A program made the position numbers and the translations under genes. A stretch of 64,000 nt of DNA from Fibrobacter sp. UWH4 (lineage in GTDB: Bacteria > Fibrobacterota > Fibrobacteria > Fibrobacterales > Fibrobacteraceae): the NCBI RefSeq assembly GCF_900142475.1, contig NZ_FRAY01000005.1:124001-188000 (forward strand). Reading direction: 5' to 3'. The notes below the pieces were generated by a model. That model was given only the letters and a program-made list of their open reading frames with translations. It searched no databases and was not told where the DNA came from. Positions 5,146-52,554 of the stretch are shown one piece after another. How positions within the stretch are numbered: the stretch's first letter is position 1; each line of letters starts with the position of its first letter.

Positions 5146-7599
5146 TTACAGTGTCTTGGTGATGGCGAGTTCGTTGTTCTCGCCGTTTCTACGGTAGCAA
5201 ACGCTGTCCATCGTCTTCTTCACGATAAAGATTCCGAGGCCTCCGATTTCGCGCTCTTCAGCGGGGAGCGTCACGTCAGGGTCGGCTTGCTTGATCGGGT
5301 CATAGGGCTTGCCGTTATCGATAAAGGTTAGCCTTGCCGTGAGAGTCGCCTTGCGGACTTCGACAATCAGGGTGACCTTGGTTGCACCCGAGAACTTGAC
5401 GATGTTGCTGTAGATTTCGTCGATAGCGATGTTGATTTGCATCTGCGATTTCAGTGAACCATCCATCGGGGCAAGGATCCCTTCGACAAATGCCGTGAGA
5501 ATGTCCTGGTTTTCCGGGATGACGTCTACGATTTTTTCGTAGCGGTCCCAAGCATCTTGCATTTGCACTTTCTTTGCTCCATCCATTGGTGTAAGGATGC
5601 CTTCGACAAACGACTTCAATTCACCCTTGTTGTCGCCAGAAACATCAATGGTTTTCTCGTAGCGTTCCCAGACGGGATCGTCGATACCGTTGAATTTGAT
5701 GGCGAGCATGGTAATGTCGTCGAATTGCGGGGCTTCTTGTACAAAATTGTCTATTTCGGTCTTGACGAGTTTGCAGGTGTCGGCTGTATTCAGCTCGCCG
5801 CCTTTGGTCAGCGTCGCGAGGAGCCTGCTGTCGCCGAAAAGGACGTCGCTGGTGTTGGTCGCTTCGGTTACGCCGTCCGTGTAAAGGAACAGGGTGTCGC
5901 CTTGCTTGAGGTCGTATGCCTGCGGCTTGTAGAGGGTGTCGTCCATGGCCGCCATGGGAAGCCCCGGTTTGCTCATGAGAAACTCGACGGAACCGTCGCT
6001 GTGGCGGACTGCGGGCGGATTGTGGCCTGCCGATGCAAAACTGATGTGGCCTGTGCGCAGGTCTATGATGCCTGCCCATACCGTGACGAACATGTTGAGA
6101 CGGTTGCGCTTCGCAAGGGCGTAGTTGGTCTTGTTGAACGCGTCGACGATCGATTTCAGGTTCTTGGTCATGGTGCGCAGGATTATTCGTGCCACCATCA
6201 TGAACAGGGCCGCGGCGACTCCCTTTCCTGAAACGTCTCCGATGACAATGCAAAGGTGATCGTTGTCGATTTTGAAGAAATCGTAGAAGTCTCCGCCGAC
6301 TTCCTTGGCGGGGAGTAGGAACGGAGTGAGTTCGTGGCGGTCGTCATCGGAATTTTCATCCCGTTCGCTGCCGGGGAGCATGGAAAGCTGAATGTTGCGG
6401 GCAAGGTCCAGTTCGCGTTCGATTCGCTTCATGTCCTTCTGCTTTTCGATATGTTCCTTGAGTTCGGTCAGCATATTCGAGAATGCGCCTGCAAACTCGG
6501 AAATTTCGTCGTGTCCCGTTATTTGAGGAATGGTGACATTGAAGTTTCCTCGTCCGAGCTTTCGTGCGGCGGCCGCAAGTTCCTTGAGTGGCTTTGCCAC
6601 GCGGAAAGAAATGAGCAAGATGATAATGAGGATGATGCCGTAGCCGCCAAGCGCAAGCATTAGGAACAGCTTGCGCATGGACCTCTGGTCCTGCAGGTAT
6701 TTCTCGATAGGCCATACGACCATGAAGGTCCAGTTGTTTGAGTTGATGGTGGTGTAGTAGATGGCAGATTCTTCGCCGCCCGCGACGGTGCCTATGAACA
6801 GTCCGCTGCTATCACGAGTCCTGCGGTCGAATAAAATTTGATTGTTGCCGTGGCTCTCTTTTACGACAATCTCGCGGTTCCTTTTTCCCTGGGCGATGCT
6901 TTTGGGATAGGCTACGGCAACGTTCTTGGCAGAAGTGATGAGTGCGTAGCCGGAGTTCGAAACAGGAATTTCCGAGATGGTTTCTTTAAGGAAATCGATA
7001 GACATGTCAACGGCAAGAACACCTGCAAGTACTTCTTCGCCATTCTTGTTCTTCTGGAAAATGGGAACTGTGTAAACGGCAATCGGTTCGGGAACGAATT
7101 CTCCAATAAAGGGTTCCTGCCAGCGGCTGGTCTTGCCGTCCCTTGTACTGTAGTACCATTCCTTGTCGTCGTAGTGCCCGCCGGTGACAAGCTTGATTTC
7201 GTTTTCAGTGAAACGGGCGAGTCGCATGAATTCGCCTTTGGGTGTTTCAGGCCCCATTCCAGGTTCGTATGCGAGTACGACAGCCACGATTTGGGGAACC
7301 AAATTTCGCGCGTTTGTCAGGGATTGTAGCAGGAAGGTGTCTAGTTCCGCCTTGGTCATCTTGCGCTTGCCGAGGGTGGAGGCGACATCGTCACCGACCA
7401 GTTTTCCCGCATTGAACAACTTGTCAATGTAATTTACGTTTGCGCGGCTAGACTCTTCTCCGTTTTCTACGGTCATCCTGTTCAGCATGTCTTGAGTCTT
7501 GTAGCTCATGATGCCGAATATCAGGCCGAAGACGACCGTAATGGCCGCCAGAATCATCATAGACTGTTTGAATGCGAGTCCCCTGAAATTAAAACCCAT
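5146..7599 (-). CDS. Sensor / SpoIIE-type PP2C phosphatase / RsbW-like kinase fusion
   Basis: 817 residues: membrane segment about 14-31, extracytoplasmic dCache-like sensor (about 32-310, with 'KEWYYSTRDG' and 'VLAVDMSIDFL'), membrane segment about 311-335, HAMP ('VAKPLKELAAAARKLGRG'), and a short coiled linker ('ERELDLARNIQLSMLP'). A SpoIIE phosphatase follows (metal-binding 'GGDFYDFF' near 435; 'VIGDVSGKGVAAALFM'). The C-terminal GHKL ATPase runs from about 684 to 817 ('AIDEIYSNIVKF' N-box, 'DNGKPYDP', 'GGLGIFIVKK'). Phosphatase and kinase of a partner switch are thus in one chain, next to the STAS substrate candidate. Residues 644-683 and 684-723 are a tandem duplication. Confidence 0.92.
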   Translation of the reverse strand: MGFNFRGLAFKQSMMILAAITVVFGLIFGIMSYKTQDMLNRMTVENGEESSRANVNYIDKLFNAGKLVGDDVASTLGKRKMTKAELDTFLLQSLTNARNLVPQIVAVVLAYEPGMGPETPKGEFMRLARFTENEIKLVTGGHYDDKEWYYSTRDGKTSRWQEPFIGEFVPEPIAVYTVPIFQKNKNGEEVLAGVLAVDMSIDFLKETISEIPVSNSGYALITSAKNVAVAYPKSIAQGKRNREIVVKESHGNNQILFDRRTRDSSGLFIGTVAGGEESAIYYTTINSNNWTFMVVWPIEKYLQDQRSMRKLFLMLALGGYGIILIIILLISFRVAKPLKELAAAARKLGRGNFNVTIPQITGHDEISEFAGAFSNMLTELKEHIEKQKDMKRIERELDLARNIQLSMLPGSERDENSDDDRHELTPFLLPAKEVGGDFYDFFKIDNDHLCIVIGDVSGKGVAAALFMMVARIILRTMTKNLKSIVDAFNKTNYALAKRNRLNMFVTVWAGIIDLRTGHISFASAGHNPPAVRHSDGSVEFLMSKPGLPMAAMDDTLYKPQAYDLKQGDTLFLYTDGVTEATNTSDVLFGDSRLLATLTKGGELNTADTCKLVKTEIDNFVQEAPQFDDITMLAIKFNGIDDPVWERYEKTIDVSGDNKGELKSFVEGILTPMDGAKKVQMQDAWDRYEKIVDVIPENQDILTAFVEGILAPMDGSLKSQMQINIAIDEIYSNIVKFSGATKVTLIVEVRKATLTARLTFIDNGKPYDPIKQADPDVTLPAEEREIGGLGIFIVKKTMDSVCYRRNGENNELAITKTL
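5431..5670 (-). repeat. Tandem 40-codon duplication inside the phosphatase-kinase gene
   Basis: Two consecutive 120-bp units encode 40-residue copies beginning 'WERYEKTIDV' and 'WDRYEKIVDV', sharing 'FVEGIL', 'PMDG' and 'QMQ'. About 23 of 40 residues are identical. The second copy runs into the kinase N-box; the first is an extra copy in the linker. Confidence 0.9.
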
Positions 7600-10543: not shown

Positions 10544-13225
10544 CTATTTAATCGTCCAGGTCTGCTTGTTCACCTGCAGGATTTTTCTGCCCTGCACCTG
10601 AGCGGCAGCGCTACGCACGTCGGCTTCGCTCACCGGGAGCTTGGCCTGCCACATCACGCGGCCTTGCATATCGAACATGGCGACTGTGCCGCGGCTTGCT
10701 GCGATGGCGCTTTGCCAGTTCATCTTCGGAGAGGCAATCACAGGAGCAAACGATGCAGGAGCTTCCTTGGCAATCACCAGCAGCTTGAACGTTCCGGAGA
10801 ATTCGGCGTCGCTTACCGTAATTGCAATCGGGAACATGGTGCCCGGGGCAACGACGGAGTCCTTGGCGCTTGCAATCGAGATGATACCGTCCTTCATAGA
10901 CCATGTGAACAAATCGGTTTTCTTAATCGGCTCGATCTTATAGGTCAGGGAATCACCATCAGGATCGGAAACGTTGCTGTTCAATTCGTACTTGAGGTTC
11001 CAGGTTTCTCCGAGGCCGGCATACAGGGTGTCGATGGCCTTTGCAATCACCGGGCGGTCGTTCGAACAGGCGATGACGGCCGGAAGGATGATTTCTCCCG
11101 TTGCGCCTTGTGAGTCCTTAGCGACGATAATGAGTTCGGCGTTGCCACAGGCGTTCTTGACCGACTTGACCTGGATAGCTCCCGTCGAGGTAATCACGAT
11201 CGGGGCAAGCAGGCTGTCGTCGCTGCGGGCCGAGAAGGTAAGCTTGGTGGCGTCATCCGTATCATCGGTAAACCAGGTTTGCATTTCCTTTTTCAGGAAG
11301 GCAACCGGACTGCCAAAATCTTCCTTGAGAGCCGAAAGACGCTTGCTGGCCGTGTCTGCTACACCGGCGATCGCCTTCGGGGGTTGGTTCTTGTGTCCGA
11401 CCGTAAGGATAACTGTTGCTGGTCGCGATGTGTCGCCCTTGTCGTTTACCACGACATATTGGAAGGAGTCGAGGCCCTCGTAATGTCCTGCATCGTAGGT
11501 GAACGAACCGTCTTCGGCAAGCTTGACGGTTCCTTCGCCAGCATTTTCCACGAGAATCGCGGTAAGCGTAGCCTTGGCGCTGTCGGGGTTCAAGTCATTC
11601 TTCAGCACGCCGGGTTTAGCAATCTTGTTCAGGGAATCCTGCACGACCTTGTAGCTGTCGTCGGTTGCGACAGGCAGGTCTTTGACTTCAAGCACATTCA
11701 CGAAGAAGTTGACACCGACGGAATCCTTACCGGACTTGGCCCAGAAGGTGAGCTTTGCGAGTCCGTTGGCGTTTGCAGTCGGGGTGAACAGGATATAGTG
11801 GGATCCGGCGGCATGGCTGTACTCGGCCTTCACGATTCCGCTGGAAGTGACGCCGTAGGTTACGGTTTCGAGACCGTCGGGGTCATCGACGACGAATGCG
11901 GTTGCGGGAATTTCGAAGGCGTCTGTCGCATCCGGATCGAAGTCTTCGTCAAGCTGGAGGGTGTCCTTGAAAAGGGCTGTGTCGAGGCTTACCAGAACCA
12001 TCGGGTCGTTGACGTCGGTCACGGTGATGGTTACCGTTGCCGGCTTGCTTTCAAGGCCGCCCTCGTCGGTGAGGGTATAAGTGAAGACGTCTGTTCCGGC
12101 AAAGTTCGGGTTGGGCGTGTAGGTGAAGCCACCGTTCAAGTTGCCTGCGGAATTCGTATCCATTTTGAGCGTGCCGTTTTCCGGTTCGCTGACAACGGTA
12201 AGTGTCAGCGGAGACAGGGAATTCGGGTCATCGACATCGTAGTCGTTTTTCAGAAGGCCGGGAACCTTGACCTTGAGAACGGAATCTTCCTTGACGGTGT
12301 AGGTGTCGTTCACGGCGACCGGAGCGTTTTCCCTGTTAGCGACTGTTACCGTGAGTGTGTAATCAACGGGATCGTTTTCTCCATCGTCTGCTTGCAGGAC
12401 GACCGTTGCTGAGCCATCCGTATTGGCGGCTGCCACCATATAGATATGGTCGGTCTGCTCATAGGAGGTCTTTGACTTGATGAACGAGGCGTTGGCCTTG
12501 CCACTCGTAATCAAGGCGGTTACGAGCGCATCACCGTCATCGTCACTGAAAATCGTGGAGAGGTCGATGTCCAGGGTGTCGCCTTCGTACAAGGTGGCGG
12601 AACCCGTTTCGGTCCCAACGAGGACAGGGGGCTTGGTCTCGCACTTGTCACCGAGGATGATGCTTGCGATTTCAACGGTGTTCGTGTTGAGAGTCGTTGT
12701 CGCGTGGGTATTCTTGAAACCGAACTGGACTCCGATTTGCTTGGTAATGTTCCAGGTGACCGTCGTCGTGGATTTCCACCCCTGCTTCATGTCGGCAAAG
12801 GCGATGAACTGTTTCTTGAAACCGCTGGAAGCCTTCAGTTCCGAACCGTAGTAGTTGTCGTCGGTAATGGTGGACTGCTTGAAGTCCACGCGGAAAGGAG
12901 CCGTTGACTTGTAGGTCAGGCACATGCCCGTGTAGCCGGAAAGCGAAACCGGAACATCGTTATAGGCGGCGTTCTGTTCCCATGCGAAACCGAAACCGGC
13001 TCCGTTGCTTGCGCTGCCAGCCTTGGCCGCCATGCTGGCGACCTTGACGTTATCCGCAGTCGTCGATGTGTCGATTGAAGCGCCGGTACCGTATTTGTAG
13101 GAGTACCAGTAGGCGGGAGCTTTGACGCCTGCGCCTTCAGGTCCCCAAACCGTTGCAGAAGCCGCGAAAGCGGAACTTGCCAAGATGCCCAAGGCACCCA
13201 TATATGAAACCATTTTTTCCATCAT
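10544..13225 (-). CDS. Secreted multidomain Ig/cadherin-like protein with C-terminal sorting-like domain
   Basis: 893 residues. A signal peptide (about 1-22, 'ALGILASSAFAASA') is followed by a beta-sandwich-like domain (about 25-190). Tandem Ig/cadherin-like modules of the bacterial adhesin type then carry Asp-rich calcium-type motifs: 'FSDDDGDAL', 'DVDDPNSLSPL', 'FTYTPNPNFAGTDVFTYTL', 'SDPDGDSLTYK'. The end ('VAMFDMQGRVMWQAKL ... GRKILQV') resembles the sorting domain of other secreted proteins in this window. Likely a cell-surface or released adhesin or carbohydrate-interacting protein; no catalytic motif seen. AGAGGT lies before the ATG. The gene is monocistronic and convergent with ackA. 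Confidence 0.8.
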   Translation of the reverse strand: MMEKMVSYMGALGILASSAFAASATVWGPEGAGVKAPAYWYSYKYGTGASIDTSTTADNVKVASMAAKAGSASNGAGFGFAWEQNAAYNDVPVSLSGYTGMCLTYKSTAPFRVDFKQSTITDDNYYGSELKASSGFKKQFIAFADMKQGWKSTTTVTWNITKQIGVQFGFKNTHATTTLNTNTVEIASIILGDKCETKPPVLVGTETGSATLYEGDTLDIDLSTIFSDDDGDALVTALITSGKANASFIKSKTSYEQTDHIYMVAAANTDGSATVVLQADDGENDPVDYTLTVTVANRENAPVAVNDTYTVKEDSVLKVKVPGLLKNDYDVDDPNSLSPLTLTVVSEPENGTLKMDTNSAGNLNGGFTYTPNPNFAGTDVFTYTLTDEGGLESKPATVTITVTDVNDPMVLVSLDTALFKDTLQLDEDFDPDATDAFEIPATAFVVDDPDGLETVTYGVTSSGIVKAEYSHAAGSHYILFTPTANANGLAKLTFWAKSGKDSVGVNFFVNVLEVKDLPVATDDSYKVVQDSLNKIAKPGVLKNDLNPDSAKATLTAILVENAGEGTVKLAEDGSFTYDAGHYEGLDSFQYVVVNDKGDTSRPATVILTVGHKNQPPKAIAGVADTASKRLSALKEDFGSPVAFLKKEMQTWFTDDTDDATKLTFSARSDDSLLAPIVITSTGAIQVKSVKNACGNAELIIVAKDSQGATGEIILPAVIACSNDRPVIAKAIDTLYAGLGETWNLKYELNSNVSDPDGDSLTYKIEPIKKTDLFTWSMKDGIISIASAKDSVVAPGTMFPIAITVSDAEFSGTFKLLVIAKEAPASFAPVIASPKMNWQSAIAASRGTVAMFDMQGRVMWQAKLPVSEADVRSAAAQVQGRKILQVNKQTWTIK

Positions 13226-50191: not shown

Positions 50192-51103
50192 ATGACTGAT
50201 AATCTAGGTATGCTGAAGAAGATTTTAGAATTTGGTCATATGGTGCGCTTTAGCCATTCGCTTTTCGCGATGCCTTTTGCGATTGGTTCCATGTGGGTGG
50301 CGGCTGATGGTTTCCGCGGAATGAGTGTCGCGGAGACTGCGCGGATTGTCCTGCTGATTGTCGGCTGTATGGTGACCGCTCGCAACAGCGCGATGAGTTT
50401 CAACCGCATTGCCGATGCCGATATCGATGCCAAGAATCCGCGTACGGCGAAACGCCACCTGCCTGCGGGGCGTCTGAGCAAGAAATCCGTGGTGGCATTC
50501 CTTGCCGTGAACGGGGTGCTGTTCGTTGCCTTTGCCGCGCTGCTGCAACCGCTTGCGGGTCTGCTTGCATTGCCGGTGTGGCTATTGCTGCTTTCTTATT
50601 CTTACTGGAAAAGGTTCAGCTGGCTTTGCCACTGGTTCTTGGGTTTTGCCATCGGCATGAGTCCGCTCGGAGCCTGGATTGCAATTCGCGGAGAATTTGC
50701 CGTGTTCCCGATTTTCCTGCTTGTGATTCTGATGCTCTGGATGGGTGGCTTTGACATCATTTACGCGACCCAGGACGAGGAAATCGACCGCGCCATGGGA
50801 CTTCATTCGGTGCCCGCCCGTTTTGGCCGCAAGCGCGCTCTGCAGATAGCTTTCTGGAGCCATGTCGCGATGCTTGCATTGTGCGTGGCGTTTGGCGTGT
50901 TCTGGGGAATGGGCGCTGCCTGGTGGGTGGTAACCGGCTTGATGACTGCCGCCATTCTCTATATTCACCTGTTCCGTAAATCCGACGACCTTGACGCCAT
51001 GAACCGCGATTTCTTCTTGGCGAATGTCGCTATCAGCGTGCTCGTGATGGCGGGACTCATCGTGTGGATTTGCATGGGAGGCGATGTCAATGCCCTTTAC
51101 TAA
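50192..51103 (+). CDS. UbiA-family prenyltransferase (MqnP-like)
   Basis: 303 residues with about eight membrane segments. The two Asp-rich motifs that bind prenyl diphosphate are present: 'NRIADADIDAKNPRT' and 'YATQDEEIDRAMG'. It attaches the polyprenyl chain to a ring. In the futalosine pathway the UbiA homologue MqnP prenylates dihydroxynaphthoate, and the neighbouring ubiE and ubiX-like genes fit that role. 66 bp separate it from the UbiX-like gene. The next small gene overlaps its end. Confidence 0.92.
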   Translation: MTDNLGMLKKILEFGHMVRFSHSLFAMPFAIGSMWVAADGFRGMSVAETARIVLLIVGCMVTARNSAMSFNRIADADIDAKNPRTAKRHLPAGRLSKKSVVAFLAVNGVLFVAFAALLQPLAGLLALPVWLLLLSYSYWKRFSWLCHWFLGFAIGMSPLGAWIAIRGEFAVFPIFLLVILMLWMGGFDIIYATQDEEIDRAMGLHSVPARFGRKRALQIAFWSHVAMLALCVAFGVFWGMGAAWWVVTGLMTAAILYIHLFRKSDDLDAMNRDFFLANVAISVLVMAGLIVWICMGGDVNALY

Positions 51104-51323
51104 TGGCCCTTTCAAGAAACCCTTTTCTATCGAAGACAAAATCAAGATGTTCGACCGCATGGGCGCTACCGCTGCCGTGATTGCGCTTGTACTCATTATG
51201 CTGATAGAATCGGGCTATGCAGGCGAATACAAGAACCTCGCCGATATGGGTCTTACCGCGATGATCGTGGTACTGGCAGTTTCGCTCGCCGGCAGTCTTT
51301 TTTATAAGACGCGAAAAAAATAG
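51090..51323 (+). CDS. Small two-helix membrane protein
   Basis: 77 residues: basic start ('MPFTNGPFKKPFSIEDKIKMF') and two membrane segments ('GATAAVIALVLIMLIES', 'MGLTAMIVVLAVSLAGSLFY') with a KTRKK tail. The ATG at 51090 is eight bases after GGGAGG; an ATG at 51084 is too close to it. It overlaps the end of the prenyltransferase gene, so it belongs to that operon. Function unknown. Confidence 0.75.
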   Translation: MPFTNGPFKKPFSIEDKIKMFDRMGATAAVIALVLIMLIESGYAGEYKNLADMGLTAMIVVLAVSLAGSLFYKTRKK

Positions 51324-51329
51324 CGGAAT

Positions 51330-51611
51330 ACCTATAAAGGTTGGTTTCCCACCGTGTTTTATAGGTGCGTTATGCGAGTTTTTTGTGGAGTGTACCTATA
51401 ATTAGGCCTGCGGCAGTATTGTTATAGGTACAATGTTTTGTTTTTGCAGACAAATTAATCATATTCTTTGCTAAAATCTTTCCGAAAAATACCTATAAGT
51501 TGTGCGAAATTGTGTTTTTTATAGGTCGAGCCGATCGTTGTTTCTCTTATATGGCTTCTTTTAACGAGTGCTTTGTACCTATAAGAAAACTTTTTCCTTT
51601 TTTTTATAGGT
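51330..51611. repeat. Array of eight ACCTATAA half-sites in alternating orientation
   Basis: Four inverted pairs ACCTATAA...TTATAGGT: 51330-51366, 51394-51429, 51491-51526 and 51577-51611, with inner spacers of 21, 20, 20 and 19 nt. Pair 2 extends to TGTACCTATAA/TTATAGGTACA and pair 4 to GTACCTATAA/TTATAGGTAC. Pairs start 64, 97 and 86 bp apart. The sequence between arms is not conserved. The array fills a 331-bp gap between the 3' ends of two convergent genes; no ORF is seen in it. Confidence 0.95.
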
Positions 51612-51654
51612 ACGTTTCAAAAAAATGGGATTGAATTTCCGTGATTCACGGTTG

Positions 51655-52554
51655 TTAGATTTCCAGGTCGGCGCTATATACGGTTTCGACCGTTCCGTCG
51701 TCGCATTTGAATAGCAGGCTTCCGTCGTCTTGCATGTCGAGGATGGAGCCTGTTTTTTTGATGGCGCCTTCGCCGCTGTCGCGGTTCTGGTCGGTGCAAT
51801 GGTTGTTGACGACAATCGTCCCGCGGGCGCCGATAAACTGGTCCATGCGCTTCCACGCGGCAACCCACGGGCGGATGCCGAAGGCGCGGAACTGCCCGAC
51901 GGCACGTTCAAGGTTCGCAACAAGCATTTGCAGTAGCTTTTCGCGGTTGATGCGTTGGCCGCAGATATCCTTGAGGGTCGTGACGCTGCGGCCCAGGTGC
52001 GCGTAGTCGCCGGGGGAACTGTTCACGTTGATTCCCACGCCCATGCTGATGGCGGGTATGTTTTTTGCCGCGGTTGAATACTGCGCACCGTCCGATTCCC
52101 TCTTTTTGATATAAACTAATTCGGCGAGTATCCCGCAGAATTTGTGCTTTCCGCAAAGGATATCGTTGGGCCACTTGACGGAAACTTTCCCGATATTCGG
52201 GTTACCTAGCCCCTGGGCGTGGGCGTCGTCCTGAAGCCCCTTGAAAATTTCTGCGAAAGTAAGTGCTGCCACTTGTGTAATTTGTGGTGCCGAGGCGAGC
52301 GGGATTCCGTCTAGCGGAATCAGGATGTTGAAGTAGAGGTTGAGGCCGGCAGGGGAGTCCCAGGTGCGATCATGGCGGCCGCGGCCTGCCGTCTGCTTGT
52401 CGGCGACCATCAAGGTTCCAGGGGCAATTTCTCCGGCTGCGGCGCGGGCCTTCATTAGACTGTGGGTGCTTTCGAGACTGTCGAACAGAAAGGCGGGGGC
52501 GTTTCCGAAACCGCCAAGATGCCAGTCGCAGAATGGTCGTTCGGGGCTGAACAC
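51655..52554 (-). CDS. birA: Biotin-[acetyl-CoA-carboxylase] ligase
   Basis: Attaches biotin to carboxylase carrier proteins. 299 residues, with the biotinyl-AMP loop 'KQTAGRGRHDRTWDSP', 'LNLYFNILIPL', 'VKWPNDILCGKHKFCGIL' and 'MGVGINVNSSPGDY'. There is no N-terminal helix-turn-helix, so it is the non-repressor class. The start is GTG, directly after the TAG of the upstream gene, so the two are coupled. Confidence 0.94.
   Translation of the reverse strand: MFSPERPFCDWHLGGFGNAPAFLFDSLESTHSLMKARAAAGEIAPGTLMVADKQTAGRGRHDRTWDSPAGLNLYFNILIPLDGIPLASAPQITQVAALTFAEIFKGLQDDAHAQGLGNPNIGKVSVKWPNDILCGKHKFCGILAELVYIKKRESDGAQYSTAAKNIPAISMGVGINVNSSPGDYAHLGRSVTTLKDICGQRINREKLLQMLVANLERAVGQFRAFGIRPWVAAWKRMDQFIGARGTIVVNNHCTDQNRDSGEGAIKKTGSILDMQDDGSLLFKCDDGTVETVYSADLEI

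Follow-up and report, generated by a model that had tools for sequence, protein, structure and literature searches.

In the REP/RAYT systems an enzyme gene is accompanied by cognate palindromic elements that are both adjacent to it and dispersed intergenically; enzyme and elements co-evolve, and presence of the gene goes with abundance of the elements (PMC2817692, PMC8266576). The RAYTs (TnpAREP) are HUH/Y1 tyrosine transposases, kin of IS200/IS605, that act on single-strand hairpins, and the gene stands between a pair of REPs in inverted orientation whose head is GT(A/G)G. BIMEs are clusters of palindromic units in alternating orientation, often located 3' of genes. In the parS, matS and SlmA-type systems, too, dyad sites are dispersed and a single chromosomal protein reads them, the protein being ParB, MatP or SlmA.

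The window, the 64,000-nucleotide stretch of a Fibrobacter genome that was analysed (genome G000, C5:124001-188000), contains an array of dyads that invites comparison with all of these. A sequence-only reading had described eight alternating half-sites, forming four pairs at 19-21 nt, between convergent genes; all eight half-sites (51330-51611) are indeed exact and of the ACCTATAA type, their alternation is strict, the inter-arm spacings are 21, 20, 20 and 19 nt, and the flanking genes do converge. The features are:

51084..51323, + strand: small membrane-protein-like ORF, the upstream flank; its 3' end faces the array and it lies outside the system
51324..51654: array-containing intergenic gap, with a length of about 330 bp both here and in the sister species G037
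51330..51366: dyad 1, ACCTATAA-N21-TTATAGGT, half-sites 51330-51337 (+) and 51359-51366 (-); kept in G037
51394..51429: dyad 2, half-sites 51394-51401 (+) and 51422-51429 (-); start-to-start distance from dyad 1, 64 bp (6 turns)
51491..51526: dyad 3, half-sites 51491-51498 (+) and 51519-51526 (-); start-to-start distance from dyad 2, 97 bp (9 turns)
51577..51611: dyad 4, half-sites 51577-51584 (+) and 51604-51611 (-); start-to-start distance from dyad 3, 86 bp (8 turns)
51655..52554, - strand: biotin-ligase-like gene (named from a reading of its sequence alone), the downstream flank; its 3' end faces the array and it lies outside the system

Because the window holds 12 exact copies of ACCTATAA against 0.63 expected from dinucleotide shuffles (largest shuffle 4), the array is far beyond chance; the earlier estimate of about two chance occurrences of the 8-mer was too high. 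Lone exact copies without a partner half-site are found at 10938, 25387, 44761 and 46224, a slight excess over the 0.63 expected window-wide.

The genome-wide pair search that the reading had proposed, run as ACCTATAA-N(15-26)-TTATAGGT, yields 53 exact dyads with spacers of 19-21 nt and none for a reversed-pattern control. All 53 fall in 14 arrays of two to five exact dyads each, usually four, and no dyad is solitary. The half-site has a weaker context of G-T before and A after, giving gTACCTATAAa, and the two half-sites of a dyad are 28 (27-29) apart. Dyad-to-dyad steps are about 63, 74, 85, 95 or 106 bp, that is, whole helical turns: the 40 ACCTATAA steps of this genome give a best period of 10.8 in the range 8-14 (R=0.885; R at 10.5 is 0.858), and 52 steps from arrays with other half-sites beside nuclease genes give 10.45 (R=0.949), where the maxima for 5000 random sets are 0.55 and 0.45, respectively. 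Proteins occupying a single face of the DNA double helix would require helical phasing of this kind, which has no RNA counterpart. All 14 arrays are intergenic by gene calls made with a simple codon model, seven in convergent, five in tandem and two in divergent gaps, and no common theme was found among the genes neighboring the 14. The doubt expressed earlier about a simple operator was well placed, since 13 of the 14 arrays lie away from the nuclease gene described below, the flanking genes are unrelated and half of the gaps are convergent. The helical quantisation of the pair-to-pair distance, the 13 further arrays and the existence of one cognate gene all go beyond what had been noted. The perfect alternation is broken in another array, that of L021, by an additional forward half-site at 5963, which lies 20 bp ahead of the first dyad.

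Comparison of the proteins encoded near arrays in Fibrobacter and Clostridia shows one family directly beside an array in both phyla. It is encoded by a stand-alone gene of ~273 aa, with the array directly upstream in both phyla; in the window's genome the relevant features are:

C5:39236-40054: own-genome ACCTATAA nuclease, array upstream
C6:92482-93198, + strand: second own-genome nuclease (locus L199, C6:88500-97500), with an upstream array of TTACATACTAA
C2:373.6k, C3:403.5k, C4:183k, C5:32.5k and C6:137.3k: dispersed TTACATACTAA dyads

No Pfam, NCBIfam or PHROG family matches the ~273-aa protein, no transposase match was seen either, and there are no convincing sequence relatives in the PDB. 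An AlphaFold2 model (pLDDT 87) shows a beta-hairpin together with a helix of 36 residues and a core like that of PD-(D/E)XK enzymes, with the alpha-beta3-alpha-beta order and conserved acidic residues of that fold. Residues E170, D201, E216, H217 and K168 are retained in 70-71 of 71 proteins, and the motif lysine is non-canonical (K233 in 63 of the 71, R in 8). Foldseek matches to the model are weak (best E=0.02), with restriction-type nucleases on top, and include Bax1, DrdV, Vsr, MunI and R2 proteins. On the strength of this model the family appears to be a PD-(D/E)XK nuclease. An N-terminal domain resembling the arm-binding domain of tyrosine integrases was considered and set aside: the beta-beta-beta-long-helix model is confident, yet it has no significant PDB match.

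The last ~110 residues match the end of the PADLOC PDC-S68 models; the latter are ~1,200 aa long, the full-length architecture is not shared, and here the N-terminal reading domain and the arrays were seen only with the stand-alone family. Among the genomes sampled, the full-length family is confined to Fibrobacter, one sister genus (G090) and Clostridia. In viral contigs only its C-terminal domain was found, which plasmid proteins annotated as ATPase/helicase also match, and carriage of the nuclease by phages or plasmids was discarded as an explanation because these matches are weak or restricted to that domain. No earlier description of such a nuclease-array system was found in literature covered without most subscription journals; the family and its arrays are thus likely previously undescribed.

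If the nuclease reads its array, paralogues are each expected to be accompanied by an array, and this prediction was examined in the genus, where 49 of 80 genomes have a family match and single genomes have up to 8. De novo dyad search beside the paralogues gives arrays of the same geometry and other half-sites: TTACATACTAA, GGCATATAA, TGCATATAA, GGGGCGTATAA, TTACGGAC, TAGGACTAA, TGGGTAAA, TACTAGCT and GGGGCRTATAA, with further half-sites beside clostridial paralogues. About ten paralogue groups have such an upstream array, each with a differing half-site; for the nuclease with half-site TTACGGAC (L193) the clearest array copies are downstream, and several nuclease copies have no clear array. 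Motifs 2 and 3 again form dispersed dyads across the genus, with no control matches.

Motif and nuclease type go together, in counts that include near relatives (both/motif only/nuclease only/neither): 7/0/0/73 for motif 1 at >=10 dyads (p=3e-10), 12/6/0/62 for motif 2 (p=3e-10) and 4/3/0/73 for motif 3 (p=2e-5). A typed nuclease is always accompanied by dyads of its own motif (7/7, 12/12 and 4/4), and the converse has exceptions. Since type is set by the nuclease's own upstream array, the informative part of these counts is the dyads elsewhere in the genome and their absence where the type is missing. Motif-1 dyads (1-9) occur without a motif-1 nuclease in 11 Fibrobacter genomes, and the nuclease is absent from 5 of 18 array-bearing genomes searched, one of the five being probably a chance match; part of these may be incomplete MAGs or related clades reading TACC(C/T)ATAA. 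Six genomes (G022, G017, G069, G028, G013 and G076) have few motif dyads and no detected nuclease, as incomplete assemblies or as relics after its loss.

Specificity maps to the N-terminus of the protein. On a tree of 71 nucleases, near relatives included, the motif labels change 15 times, against 28.5 when shuffled. The proteins L032 (G065, ACCTATAA) and L176 (G060, GGCATATAA) form a natural chimera: 229 of 273 residues are identical, and residues 1-51 contain 37 of the 44 differences, leaving only 7 for the other 222 positions. Between the two proteins the half-site changes from TACCTATAA to GGCATATAA. Recognition is assigned to the N-terminal region because the two differ almost only there. 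Hairpin residues 45-49 track the motif, with D(K/R)CR for TACCTATAA in Fibrobacter, VL for GCATATAA on three separate branches, NH for TTACATAC and Q(P/S)HK for GGGGCRTATAA. One protein that had no motif label (L173) has a QPHK hairpin, and inspection shows a GGGGCRTATAA array beside it, in agreement. The code is not universal, since clostridial ACCTATAA readers use other hairpin residues.

Conservation of the arms and not of the spacers, which had been supposed from the window alone, is evident between sister species. In 11 arrays aligned between G000 and G037/LVAE01, 2 of 672 arm positions and 130 of 2215 spacer positions are changed (p=4e-13), and 222 of 3300 flanking positions differ; arms thus change about 20-fold more slowly than spacers. 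Choosing arms that are exact in one of the two genomes biases the arm value about twofold, not twentyfold. The other pairs and the conserved gap, whose absence would have counted against the array, are both present, yet in about 20 syntenic Fibrobacter relatives that do not have this nuclease type the window gap is short and empty, and the array occupies it only in G000 and G037. Members of a clade have their arrays at common positions, but in Fibrobacter the two main ACCTATAA clades differ in this.

Exact ACCTATAA dyads occur in 21 of 201 genomes, nearly all inside the genus. Among the matches listed from a scan of 85,000 genomes, arrays are also present in further Fibrobacter and in numerous Clostridia, most of these being MAGs from the rumen, the clostridial arrays being tandem dyads at 73-75 or 84 bp with up to nine in succession. 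In the JAUNHC01 genome (L142, 2785-3450) the dyad period is 84 bp with up to nine copies, and one array has a 184-bp step. An initial idea of recent horizontal transfer linking Fibrobacter and Clostridia was given up, as the nucleases are only ~35% identical and stand apart in the tree. Dispersed copies are seen in the clostridial MAG CAMZBB, where similarity over ~310 bp links eleven arrays that stand at unrelated loci:

CAMZBB01 loci L061, L063, L081, L111, L113, L128, L129, L146, L159, L160 and L165: ~310-bp element with three phased dyads inside

Most pairs of copies are 80-93% identical, which argues for recent dispersal of a defined element; its ends are terminator-like hairpins (GGGGCTGTCTCA...), and it thus has the dispersed near-identical copies and defined ends of a MITE. 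The L113 copy apparently lies directly after a tRNA-like 3' end. Dispersal in the window's genome is old, since the spacers of its different arrays no longer align. No target-site duplication is evident by eye at the window gap or the CAMZBB copies, where the relatives compared are too diverged.

These observations are probably best explained if the window array constitutes four sites for a predicted nuclease that is encoded elsewhere in the genome, the sites being bound cooperatively and spread as miniature elements, in a manner like REP/RAYT with an unrelated enzyme. One nuclease monomer would read one half-site (gTACCTATAAa) by its N-terminal beta-hairpin and long helix, and two monomers would occupy each dyad, the 36-residue helix (~54 A) spanning about 14 bp from the half-site to the dyad center. 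Neighboring dimers along the array would lie on one side of the helix, and binding could therefore be cooperative. Autoregulation is suggested because the same motif precedes the nuclease gene. The arrays may have spread over the chromosome in the form of miniature elements, with breaks made by the nuclease itself as the most likely means, to settle in tolerated intergenic gaps; once there, they have in all likelihood been kept by selection on the arms. Among the identities offered by the sequence-only reading, that of sites for a dimeric protein thus agrees with the 28-bp inverted half-sites, the phasing, the arm conservation and the cognate family, and the nucleoid protein, recombinase sites and RNA hairpins are not favored.

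The resemblance to REP/RAYT lies in dispersed palindromic intergenic elements tied to one cognate gene and in enzyme-element co-evolution, seen here in the tree, the chimera and the hairpin residues. Nevertheless the system is not a member of that group, because the enzyme is predicted to be PD-(D/E)XK and not an HUH tyrosine transposase, there is no GTAG head or flanking REP pair but other half-sites in arrays that are upstream in nearly all cases, and the spacing is that of double-stranded DNA: the dyads are phased by the double helix in few arrays (14) of 2-9 dyads each. Unlike BIMEs, only arms of 8-11 bp are conserved, the spacers are free, there is no REP consensus and units are spaced by helical turns. 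Type II restriction endonucleases and other enzymes joining a DNA-binding domain to PD-(D/E)XK have in common with the family the predicted core and inverted half-sites where a dimer would meet; here, however, no methyltransferase is seen beside the nuclease, no neighbor family recurs, and it is the host's own chromosome that carries the sites and preserves them. From the parS, matS and SlmA-type systems it differs by the nuclease, the phased multi-dyad arrays and the patchy presence.

The main rival is a role in anti-phage defense or self-recognition, by which the nuclease would be parked on, or inhibited by, arrays acting as tethers or self-tags instead of transposition products, and released or activated on attack of the chromosome. 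The C-terminal match to a phage-defense candidate (PDC-S68) and to the plasmid ATPase/helicase-annotated proteins, the invariant catalytic residues, the selection on arms at fixed sites, and the patchy presence of the system, of which one genus has several specificities, agree with this, but PDC-S68 has only that domain in common and no partner gene recurs across nuclease clades beyond local synteny, and we consider it unlikely. Rather unlikely too is a re-targetable nuclease, with a short exchangeable beta-hairpin, that is held on chromosomal 'self' arrays and acts on DNA without them or when an array is disturbed. It is improbable that the protein serves mainly in chromosome architecture or at forks, with arrays looping or bridging DNA or absorbing supercoils between convergent genes and nuclease activity secondary: phasing whatever the motif and the seven convergent gaps would suit such a function, yet many complete relatives have neither nuclease nor arrays, the array positions differ between clades, and a nucleoid protein is not favored, given that the family paired with the arrays is predicted to be a nuclease and keeps its catalytic residues in 70-71 of 71. 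That the arrays are operators of a transcription-factor regulon of unrelated genes is very improbable; an array upstream of the type-1 nuclease genes examined fits autoregulation, whereas the flanking genes are unrelated, only two of the 14 gaps are divergent, the other 12 being convergent or tandem, the nuclease gene itself accounts for one of those two, and the window gap has no promoter-like match. RNA hairpins (small RNAs or terminators) or REP-like single-strand hairpins are most improbable, for although each window dyad folds better than its shuffles (z -2.7 to -5.3) and REP transposases bind folded single-strand hairpins (PMC8266576), dyad spacing tracks the B-DNA helix, asymmetric dyads exist (e.g. 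TACCCATAAA/TTTATAGGTA with a C-A mismatch) and Rfam gives no match for the array at E<=1. Sites for a site-specific recombinase were also rejected, as no recombinase was found and the relation to mobility is nearer that of REP/RAYT.

The nuclease and its arrays look like a second, unrelated case of the REP/RAYT way of life, that of private dispersed target sites, in two other phyla, and the persistence of such site populations can therefore be tested in a new setting. About ten half-sites together with a natural N-terminal swap that leaves the nuclease domain almost untouched provide a partly readable specificity code, of possible use for programmable DNA binding and for insight into how dimer arrays assemble on one DNA face. 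Nucleases of differing specificity (L026, L032, L203, L204 and L216) have a neighboring gene family in common, as if specificities had been swapped at a single place in the chromosome.
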